Shown here piece by piece: positions 43,906-46,627 of a stretch of DNA of 64,000 nt. Both the position numbers and the translations under genes were made by a program. Each line of letters opens with the position of its first letter. Position 1 is the first letter of the stretch. Location: contig JAVJQK010000014.1 in the NCBI GenBank assembly GCA_040218145.1, positions 1 to 64,000 of the forward strand. Reading direction: 5' to 3'. Source of the stretch: Sandaracinaceae bacterium (GTDB taxonomy: Bacteria > Myxococcota_A > Polyangia > Polyangiales > Sandaracinaceae). The notes below the pieces were generated by a model that saw only the letters and a list, made by a program, of their open reading frames with translations, ran no database searches and was not told the DNA's origin.

Positions 43906-44343
43906 TCAGCCAGGGCTCGGGAGCAGCTCGGCGAAGGCCAGGGCGACCCGCGAGTACTCGTCGGCGACGGCCAGCACCGCGCCCCGGAGCTCCGGCAGAT
44001 CCATCGTCTCGGTGATCTGGGAGTGGAAGACGCGCAGGGTCGAGCCCTGATCCTCCTCGTCGAGCCCCCAGTGTCCGAAGATGACGTCGGCGTTGCGCTG
44101 CAGCGCGAGGATGAGCAGCGGCATCTTCTCGGCGTCGTTCTCGGGCAGCCGGAGCCCCCCGCTCGAGAACTCGAGCACCTCTTTGCCGTGCATCTCACCG
44201 CACGCGCGCACGAAGACGTCGACCCCGGGCGCGTCGTCCATCGGCACGCTGATCTTCACGTGGGTGCCGTCGGTCGGATCCACCTCGGTGAACCCGAGGT
44301 CGCGCGCCATCGTGGTCACCTGCTCGACGAAGGGCTCGCTCAC
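43906..44343 (-). CDS. YbjN-like domain protein
   Basis: 145 residues from a GTG at 44343. It looks like the YbjN / type III secretion chaperone-like fold: HVKISVPMDDAPGVDVFV, a central LPLLILAL helix (MPLLILALQRNADVIFGHWG) and a final helix around residue 110-140. No signal peptide. It lies convergent with the M48 protease, and their stop codons share one palindrome. Confidence 0.65.
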   Translation of the reverse strand: MSEPFVEQVTTMARDLGFTEVDPTDGTHVKISVPMDDAPGVDVFVRACGEMHGKEVLEFSSGGLRLPENDAEKMPLLILALQRNADVIFGHWGLDEEDQGSTLRVFHSQITETMDLPELRGAVLAVADEYSRVALAFAELLPSPG

Positions 44344-44473
44344 GAGGCGGACTCTATCGGCTGGGGCCCCGCCACGGCAACGCCGATGGTGTGCGGTTCT
44401 TCTGACAACGGCGCCGAAGTGCGATAGGCATGGCGGTTCGAGGTCCGGGGCGGCCTTCGGGGAACCGACACGC

Positions 44474-45976
44474 ATGAGCGAGGAACGCGCAGGCAAGCGA
44501 GTCGCGATCGAGACGACGGTCCGTTTTCGGACACCGATGCTCGCCGACTTCGTCGACAGCTACAGCGGCAACGTGTCGCAAGAGGGGCTGTTCATCCGTC
44601 ACGAGGAACCGCTCAAGAAGAGCACGCTCCTGAAGCTCGAGATCGAGCTCGAGGACGAGACGCTCTCGGCGGTGGGGCGCGTGGTCTGGGTCCGACGGCC
44701 GACGCAAGCGTCCGACGACAGCCCGCCAGGCATGGGCATCAAGTTCGTGAAGCTCGACGCGGCGGCGAAGGACAAGATCGCGGCACTGGTCGAGACGCGA
44801 GGCATGGAGGGGCCAGGGACGTTCGCCAGGTCCGAAGGGGCCAGCGTCGACTCGGCCGCGCCCGCGGGTGCGTCGGTGCCGGCGCCCGGTGCGGCGAGGA
44901 GCGCAGGCGCGAAGCAGGCTGCGAGCGAGGCGGAGGTTGCTACCGCTGCCGCGTCCGGGGCCGCTACCGCGTCCGAGGCCGCTACCGCTTCCGAATCCGC
45001 TACCGCGTCCGAATCCGCGGCCGCGCCCGAGTCCGAGGCCGCTACCGCGTCCGAATCCGCTACCGCGTCCGAATCCGCTACCGCGTCCGGATCCGCCACC
45101 GCGTCCGAGTCCGCTACCGCGTCCGAGGCCGCTACCGCGTCCGAATCCGCTACCGCGTCCGAGTCCGCTGCCGCTTCCGAGGCCGCGTCCGAGTCCGAGG
45201 CCGCGTCCGAGGGTCCCTCCGAGGAGGCTGCCGCTTCGGAGGAGGCTGCCGCGTCCGAGGAGGCTCCCGGGTCTGGGTCCGGGGCCGCCGCCGCGGCGAC
45301 CGCTGCGGCGGAGGTGGCTGCCACGGCCGCGGCCGCAGCCAAGAGCGCCGCCGCTGCCGCGACCGCCGCGGCGGCGAAGGCAGCCGAGGCCGAGCAGGAT
45401 GACGCCGACTCGGACGAGGCTGACTCGGACTCCGACGATTCGGGCGACGCCGACGCGGGCGACGCCGACTCGGACACGGACGATTCAGGCGACGCCGACT
45501 CGGACACGGACGATTCAGGCGACGCCGACTCGGGCGACGCCGACTCGGACACGGACGATTCAGACGACGCCGACTCGGGCGACGACGCCGAGGCAGCCGC
45601 GGCGTCTCCAGGTGGCGCGCCGCGCAAGAAGAAGAAGAAGACGAAGCGCAAGAAGACCAAGCGCGAGCGGAAGCAGCAGGCGCGGGCCCGGAAGCGGGAG
45701 CGCAAGAAGAAGCAGAAGGAGCCCGACGACGCTCCCGCCCCCGCGGCGGCCAGCGGAGGCTCCGGGGCGTCCGCGCCCAGCCCGAAGAAGAAGAAGGCCT
45801 CCGCGCCCGAGACGGACTCGGGGCGACCGTCCGGTCGAACCTCCGTGCGGCCCGCGGCGCCGGAGCCGGAGCCCGCGAAGGAGAAGCCGACCATCAGCGC
45901 CGGGTTCTGGCCCCTGCTCGTGGTGCTCGGCGTCGTCGCGCTGATCGCGGTCTACGTCCTCTTCTTCCGGGACTGA
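44474..45976 (+). CDS. PilZ-domain protein with long low-complexity region and C-terminal membrane anchor
   Basis: 500 residues. The N-terminal 110 residues form a PilZ domain of the Myxococcus paralogue type (TIGR02266-like): DSYSGNVSQEGLFIR and GMGIKFVKLD. The RxxxR part of the c-di-GMP motif is not obvious, so binding is uncertain. Residues about 140-315 are Ala/Ser/Glu repeats, followed by Asp/Ser/Gly repeats (about 320-375), a block of Lys/Arg (about 385-420) and one TM at the extreme C-terminus (PLLVVLGVVALIAVYVLFF). The last residues are outside, so the protein is tail-anchored with the PilZ domain in the cytoplasm. Confidence 0.85.
   Translation: MSEERAGKRVAIETTVRFRTPMLADFVDSYSGNVSQEGLFIRHEEPLKKSTLLKLEIELEDETLSAVGRVVWVRRPTQASDDSPPGMGIKFVKLDAAAKDKIAALVETRGMEGPGTFARSEGASVDSAAPAGASVPAPGAARSAGAKQAASEAEVATAAASGAATASEAATASESATASESAAAPESEAATASESATASESATASGSATASESATASEAATASESATASESAAASEAASESEAASEGPSEEAAASEEAAASEEAPGSGSGAAAAATAAAEVAATAAAAAKSAAAAATAAAAKAAEAEQDDADSDEADSDSDDSGDADAGDADSDTDDSGDADSDTDDSGDADSGDADSDTDDSDDADSGDDAEAAAASPGGAPRKKKKKTKRKKTKRERKQQARARKRERKKKQKEPDDAPAPAAASGGSGASAPSPKKKKASAPETDSGRPSGRTSVRPAAPEPEPAKEKPTISAGFWPLLVVLGVVALIAVYVLFFRD
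44953..45185 (+). repeat. Tandem repeats of about 18 bases encoding Thr-Ala-Ser-Glu-Ser-Ala
   Basis: Units of the form CTACCGCGTCCGAATCCG, with GAGTCC and GAGGCC variants, follow one another about a dozen times within the PilZ gene. Copies are nearly identical at the DNA level, which suggests recent slippage or recombination. Confidence 0.8.
45430..45590 (+). repeat. Acidic tandem repeats encoding Asp-Ser-Asp-Thr-Asp-Asp-Ser-Gly-Asp-Ala
   Basis: Units around GCCGACTCGGACACGGAC followed by GATTCAGGCGAC recur four to five times. They encode an Asp/Ser stretch resembling Sdr-type surface linkers, directly before the Lys-rich block. Confidence 0.75.
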
Positions 45977-45997: not shown

Positions 45998-46627
45998 CTA
46001 CGCGGGCAGCTCGATGCGAAAGCGCGCGGCGAAGACGGGGACGCCGTGCGCCTCTCCATCCGCGTCGAGCGAATCCCACGCGATCGTGTGGTCCTCGGCG
46101 CCGTTGCGGCGGAGCACCTCGGCGATGAAGGTCTCCGTCACGATCTGATACCAGCGCACGATCGGTCCGGGCAGGCCGCGGCAGACGCCGGACACCACGC
46201 GCCCGTCGGCGCTCGACTCGACGGCGACGAAGTCGAAGTACGACGCGTTGAGCGAGGGGACCCGGAGCGCGAGCGAGCGCGCGCTCAGCACGCGGAGGAG
46301 CACGCGTCGGACCAGCCCGAGATCGCGCTCCACCTGATGCTGCGCGCGGACCCGCACGAACTCCTCGAAGGGCTTGCCGACGACCTTCCCGCACGCGCGG
46401 CCCGCCTGGATGAGGGGCCAGACGTCGTACCAGCTCGTCGTGAAGAACGTCTGGGCGAAGAAGCGCTGGAGCGCGGGATCGTCGAGCGCCTCCCCCTGCG
46501 CGGCCAGGCCCCCGGGCAGGCCCTCCCGGACGAACTCCATGTGGAACGCGTACGCCGTCCCCTTGATGCGGAAAGGGGACTCCCCCACCGCCCACGGCCA
46601 CTCCGTCGGTAACTCGTCGGTCCGCAC
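45998..46627 (-). CDS. DUF2378-like protein
   Basis: 209 residues. The order and spacing FRIKGTAYAFHMEFVREG, TTSWYDVWPLI, a long central helix and VCRGLPGPIVRWYQIVTETFI fit the DUF2378 / TIGR02265 family of Myxococcus paralogues. No signal peptide. The function of the family is unknown. Confidence 0.6.
   Translation of the reverse strand: MRTDELPTEWPWAVGESPFRIKGTAYAFHMEFVREGLPGGLAAQGEALDDPALQRFFAQTFFTTSWYDVWPLIQAGRACGKVVGKPFEEFVRVRAQHQVERDLGLVRRVLLRVLSARSLALRVPSLNASYFDFVAVESSADGRVVSGVCRGLPGPIVRWYQIVTETFIAEVLRRNGAEDHTIAWDSLDADGEAHGVPVFAARFRIELPA

Follow-up and report, generated by a model that had tools for sequence, protein, structure and literature searches.

The protein encoded at 44474..45976 (+) in the window, by which the whole analysed stretch of 64,000 nucleotides is meant, is probably a tail-anchored c-di-GMP sensor that carries its PilZ domain on a long disordered chain, the Ser/Ala-rich part of which stems from repeat arrays found across the chromosome. 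The same type of array, in which a fixed CCG alternates with three free bases, lies in several unrelated proteins of the genome.

PilZ proteins are numerous in myxobacteria; in Myxococcus xanthus 24 have been counted, 14 of which consist of the PilZ domain only while the others are fused to other domains, according to the accessible text of PMC8316039. The M. xanthus proteins PlpA, PixA, PixB and CdbS, which are myxobacterial c-di-GMP receptors or candidates, resemble the window protein: their PilZ domain carries RxxxR and a further conserved motif. However, M. xanthus PilZ proteins are stand-alone or domain-fused, whereas the window protein has a 369-residue linker and a tail anchor. The terms 'transmembrane' and 'membrane' are absent from the accessible text of PMC8316039, which describes no tail-anchored PilZ protein, and 'transmembrane' and 'disordered' are absent from that of PMC10313047 on M. 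xanthus PilZ proteins. A literature search for tethered PilZ domains, at the level of titles and the first part of abstracts, returned none describing a PilZ–linker–tail anchor arrangement.

PilZ domain, anchor and relatives

The open reading frame is complete, running from the ATG at 44474 to the stop codon at 45976 (500 residues), and its start and plan agree with those of two orthologues. Residues 5–107 (44486..44794, +) match the Pfam family PF07238 with 38.5 bits, above the curated cut-off of 22.5; for TIGR02266, a Myxococcus paralogous PilZ-like domain, the score of 65.8 bits lies just below the cut-off of 68.7, and membership is not claimed. An AlphaFold2 model of the domain, built from five sequences, was of moderate quality (pLDDT 64, pTM 0.57), and its best Foldseek matches were mostly PilZ domains, including those of Alg44, BcsA, MotI, MrkH and YcgR. 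A profile search of PDB sequences with the domain gave four matches, all of them PilZ-type 'type IV fimbriae assembly' proteins. An RxxxR motif is formed by R5 and R9 (44486..44500, +), both invariant in five aligned relatives, and an NxSxxG motif by N33, S35 and G38 (44570..44587, +), invariant in the three orthologues. The full form of the second PilZ motif is D/NxSxxG, and both c-di-GMP motifs of binding PilZ domains are present. The PilZ domain claimed in the preliminary description is thus borne out by the PF07238 score, the motifs and the PilZ folds that head the structure search, and the structure prediction does not refute the fold. Judged from its sequence, the domain would bind c-di-GMP. 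An adhesin-like nature of the Ser/Asp repeats was also considered; the match to ClfA reached 44 bits against a cut-off of 1150 and reflects low-complexity similarity only.

A hydrophobic helix is predicted at residues 480–498 (45911..45967, +), two residues before the end of the protein, and no other helix of this kind is predicted elsewhere, in agreement with the single C-terminal tail anchor proposed earlier. The helix is likewise single and extreme C-terminal in both orthologues, lying 2–3 residues from the C-terminus in all three proteins. It would insert into the inner membrane with the N-terminus of the protein in the cytoplasm.

When a PilZ-domain profile was run against 317 genomes of the class, the window protein scored 207 bits, its counterparts in two further genera of the family (one gene each, in G004 and G002) scored 202 and 201 bits, respectively, and the next match scored 118. 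The two orthologues share the plan of the window protein and form one clade with it (support 100/98) on a long stem branch (1.59). PilZ identity across the three genera is about 52%, with the open frame, the motifs and the plan kept. An orthologue was not found in three of the six genera of the family, one of which is known only from a 75% complete genome.

The clade lies within a wider PilZ–linker–helix family, the plan of which is a PilZ domain, a linker and one helix, often with PEGA. In a set of 30 family proteins, from which L039, L045, L052 and L064 were left out as truncated or distant, the helix was predicted in 28, and PEGA was found in at least 15 of the 30 aligned members, a minimum figure, since many of the loci are cut short; in A5, L033 is represented by L062 from the same contig, which the tree omits as a duplicate. 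Members outside the clade have their helix starting between residues 171 and 465, and one PEGA-type paralogue is carried by the same genome as the window (G000:C122). These proteins of the same order are like the window protein in their homologous PilZ domain, low-complexity linker and single helix. However, most of them extend well beyond the helix, in many cases with a PEGA domain, whereas the proteins of the window clade end 2–3 residues after it, and the clade also differs in a linker longer than most and in a conserved basic block; the window protein has no PEGA domain. A family member of 207 residues outside the clade (L061:4296-4916, +) has a short linker and extends only 18 residues beyond the helix, and is thus another near-tail-anchored form. 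No paper on Myxococcus proteins combining PilZ and PEGA turned up in a literature search.

The PilZ gene is adjoined in all three genera by a divergent gene encoding 166 residues (43906..44406, −, in the window), which is 68% identical in both orthologous loci and shows only a YbjN/CesT-like similarity below the cut-off in Pfam. The large helicase downstream, which we take to be Lhr-like, is also common to the window and the G002 locus. A 209-residue open reading frame at 45998-46627 (−), with no Pfam match, lies between the PilZ gene and the helicase gene.

The linker and its variation

The 369 residues between the PilZ domain (after residue 110) and the helix are of low complexity, and because only 2.7% of them are order-promoting, the linker is most likely, as far as composition can tell, a flexible chain that sets a reach rather than a fixed height. 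Its blocks follow in the order Ser/Ala/Thr/Glu, acidic Asp/Ser/Gly, Lys/Arg and a Pro/Ala/Lys stretch. The Ser/Ala/Thr/Glu block (44941..45233, +) is a (CCGNNN)n array according to TRF and hexamer analysis: CCG is present in 45/45 units of 44941-45210, and TRF reports an 18-bp array at 44943-45204 with 14.2 copies and 82% matches. The acidic block (45401..45584, +) contains 30- and 45-bp tandem units, the 30-bp unit being found by TRF at 45458-45533 (2.5 copies, 100% matches), and has a net charge of −27 over residues 321–380. Next to these residues, the Lys/Arg-rich block (residues 384–415; 45623..45718, +), which aligns with blocks resembling KKERREEARARK in the orthologues, has a net charge of +17 over the next 30 residues.

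Repetition is present at the DNA level and not at the protein level alone, as indicated by codon usage in residues 148–263, where serine is encoded by TCC in 26/28 codons (37/208 in six neighbouring open reading frames; P about 8e-18) and alanine by GCT in 18/47 codons (42/477 in the same neighbours). This skew rules out mere codon bias as the cause of the near-identity of the repeats. The preliminary description had spoken of hundreds of residues of near-identical and hence recent repeats. Their existence stands and their recent origin is supported, but the repetitive stretches amount to some 160–190 residues (about 97 Ser/Ala, about 61 acidic, plus shorter Glu- and Ala-rich pieces), and near-identity holds for the 30-bp acidic unit only, the Ser/Ala array being degenerate and the Lys/Arg block being compositional rather than a near-identical DNA repeat.

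Linkers of 369 (window), 331 and 331 residues were found in the three genera, and their repeat types differ (Ala/Thr/Ser/Glu, Ala/Asp/Lys and Glu/Ser/Pro). Despite these unrelated repeats, the order of acidic stretch, basic block and anchor is kept in all three. The linkers align poorly outside the basic block, which is the best conserved part of the proteins outside the PilZ domain and the anchor, always stands directly after the acidic stretch and has the shared positions K-ER---ARARK.

Repeat number could be compared between strains by means of G056, a further genome of the species (84% complete, 720 contigs). In G056 the PilZ gene is cut by a contig end midway through the Ser/Ala array, and the N-terminal half is absent. 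Relative to the window, its Ser/Ala array carries indels of −6 and −6 bp, its acidic block indels of −24 and −15 bp (39 bp shorter) and its Lys run one of +3 bp, all of them in frame, while 3/399 bases differ downstream of the acidic block as far as the stop codon, a stretch covering the basic block and the anchor. The repeats are therefore not invariant, and the strain indels argue against a precisely fixed linker length, although assembly collapse in G056 may have contributed to them.

A chromosome-wide family of CCGNNN arrays

Searches with the window region gave 89 matches in its own genome (G000), the window included, and 70 in G056, most of them to the Ser/Ala repeat. The element common to the matches is a degenerate hexamer of a fixed CCG and three free bases. 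The exact pattern (CCGNNN)9CCG occurs at 2940 + 2477 = 5417 positions of G000, against 80 + 23 = 103 for a reversed-pattern control, and this count is the highest among the 317 class genomes searched; the same-species genome G056 has 2111, and the other eight genomes of the family have 0 to 468. Separate bursts of CCGNNN were seen in distant genomes of the class, namely G122 (5299), G124, G125 and G126 of family f22, G042 of family f4, and G258 and G293 of family f12; reversed-pattern controls were low in the distant burst genomes.

About 170 arrays are estimated for G000 by extrapolation from contigs C7 and C14 (404 kb), from which alone the unselected counts were taken, the loci L131–L159 having been picked by similarity to the window array; G000:C7:191805-192335 and G000:C14:95552-95758 are examples of arrays. 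To escape the bias of a query that contains CCG, all six frames were searched for alternation of [STAP] and [AEDGV] residues, a criterion blind to the third base. This search found nine distinct segments in the 404 kb, with C as the free third base in 394/412 units although the other bases vary, and no segments over 400 kb from a complete genome in the family. Two frames of the arrays, NCC GNN on one strand and NCG GNN on the opposite one, give hydrophilic linkers when translated. Codon usage in the flanks agrees on both sides in 15/34 arrays, 12 of which are in the two linker frames; these frame calls come from a crude codon score trained on six window open reading frames, and the coding status of many arrays is uncertain.

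Ten open reading frames that host arrays were scanned with Pfam, one of which gave no match and one a sub-threshold match only. In an acyltransferase (E2; L143:392-2050, −), the array occupies residues 82–213, between a lipoyl domain (8–79) and an E3-binding domain (251–286); an acyltransferase with a hexamer array was matched at a strict cut-off in 2/10 genomes of the family, only in this species. In four Ser/Thr kinases an array follows the kinase domain, and in two of these the array is itself followed by PEGA. In ScpA (L139:2-2890, −), the domain at residues 55–267 is followed by an array at 326–583 in the tail, and the open frame of 1357 residues, a large share of which is array-derived tail, compares with 330–710 in five other genomes of the family. 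A nucleoside transporter has an array at residues 66–135 and its transporter domain from 169, and a ketoacyl-synthase/FabA protein is also among the hosts. Since the Ser/Ala repeat is a genome-wide DNA array in unrelated proteins, it is not a design of the PilZ protein, and the arrays account for its origin without a special role in PilZ signalling.

From G056, 30 stretches were taken, 11 of which could be paired with stretches of G000, and six of these 11 spanned a whole array. The six spanned arrays differ in length by −57, −234, +27, −54, −18 and −78 bp, all multiples of 3 (the coding status of each being putative), and five of the six are shorter in G056; several contigs of this genome end in arrays, and repeat collapse in its assembly could exaggerate the length differences. 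Gaps in the aligned arrays were multiples of 6 in 22/33 cases and of 3 in 28/33. The flanks of the compared arrays differ at 65/7047 sites and the aligned CCG positions at 9/978, whereas the NNN positions differ at 102/907, a figure that is not a count of point mutations because the alignment favours matching CCG. Selection conserving the CCG core between the strains was considered and rejected, since CCG changes at the rate of the flanks. Change at the flank rate in CCG and far more change in NNN point to exchange of whole units in register, and the simplest reading of array evolution is the gain, loss and exchange of such units.

The chances are about even that this hexamer family, with an estimated 170 arrays on a bacterial chromosome, has repeatedly inflated disordered linkers and tails of unrelated and also core proteins by in-register gain, loss and exchange of 6-bp units, with bursts in separate lineages of the class; it would then produce disordered linkers throughout the genome, the PilZ tether being one product. 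The nearest parallel found in a literature search of limited depth, which leaves novelty in print unproven, is the tandem repeats of archaeal Borgs (PMC9879509). According to the accessible text of that paper, Borg repeats lie in frame in many unrelated genes, where they make disordered regions and vary in number, and are largely absent from host genomes. The arrays are alike in these in-frame repeats and in keeping the frame in 6/6 spanned length differences (coding status putative). However, Borg units are described in the same text as perfect and A-rich, as coming in many lengths and as being almost always confined to a single locus, whereas one degenerate GC-rich hexamer rule is common to the arrays. 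Bacterial genomes in general are poor in short tandem repeats (PMC12699852, in its accessible part); the simple sequence repeats that they do contain share short units and indel polymorphism with the arrays, as far as PMC12699852 and PMC4700210 were accessible, whereas the arrays are long, degenerate and often inside protein linkers.

Competing explanations and significance

In the reading that we prefer, the PilZ domain would bind c-di-GMP in the cytoplasm and reach a putative partner from the inner membrane on a disordered, charge-patterned chain. The chain would give reach, local concentration and perhaps electrostatic control, and the basic block beside the acidic stretch may have that stretch, anionic lipid or nucleic acid as its ligand. 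The sequence and length of the chain would be under weak selection, and the (CCGNNN)n arrays would evolve by 6-bp units being added, removed or exchanged and would survive in genes mainly where they encode hydrophilic [STAP][AEDGV] linkers.

The layout had been proposed to place the PilZ domain at a set distance from the membrane, with linker length selected so that the domain sits at one height. An anchor that is absolutely terminal in all three orthologues and linkers of 369, 331 and 331 residues despite unrelated repeats agree with this proposal, and such lengths are also compatible with selection on length. However, the same three lengths are not equal, the linker composition is disordered, length differs in frame within the species, the helix of relatives lies anywhere between residues 171 and 465, and the Ser/Ala array is a genome-wide DNA element. 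Composition, strain indels and the spread of the helix in the family rule out the set distance as the main reading, and we regard it as improbable altogether. Adaptive changes of array length that tune the sensor, at a phase-variable or strain-tuning locus, would fit the length polymorphism between the strains; this polymorphism, however, is shared by all spanned arrays rather than peculiar to the PilZ gene, and since all of the spanned differences (6/6) are multiples of 3, no on/off switching is seen, which makes this explanation very improbable.

The basic block may instead be the main effector, tying nucleic acid or ribosomes to the inner membrane under the control of c-di-GMP, with the acidic stretch as a competing internal ligand. 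Such links exist elsewhere: YqjD and ElaB are tail-anchored ribosome-binding proteins. A basic stretch before a membrane helix is, however, also predicted by the positive-inside rule. CdbA, a c-di-GMP-responsive DNA-binding protein (PMC7156744, in its accessible part), is a further example of such a link. The conservation of the block, its constant place after the acidic stretch and the mere three substitutions in 399 bp between the strains over block and anchor favour such a bridge, but the Pfam scan of the window protein found no nucleic-acid-binding domain and the three linkers align poorly elsewhere; a bridging role is possible, although we consider it unlikely. Less is to be expected of the notion that the protein is a degenerate remnant of a PilZ–linker–helix–PEGA protein that lost its periplasmic part and has a functionless linker drifting by repeat expansion. 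PEGA in 15/30 family members and in the paralogue of the same genome, the long stem of the clade and the lack of a detected gene in three of six genera (one from the 75% complete genome) would fit such decay, yet three genera retain the frame, motifs and plan with PilZ domains about 52% identical, and the strain indels are all in frame, so that decay seems rather improbable.

The preferred reading, a tail-anchored sensor on a disordered chain, provides a likely c-di-GMP sensor with a naturally varying linker between fixed ends, in which the role of a disordered tether in membrane signalling is directly testable. The kinases, ScpA, the acyltransferase and the nucleoside transporter of one genome indicate that a common DNA-level process can lengthen bacterial linkers, under an array rule that is rare in most of the family. 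The arrays thereby provide a bacterial model in which the origin of low-complexity regions, and the constraints on them, can be studied.
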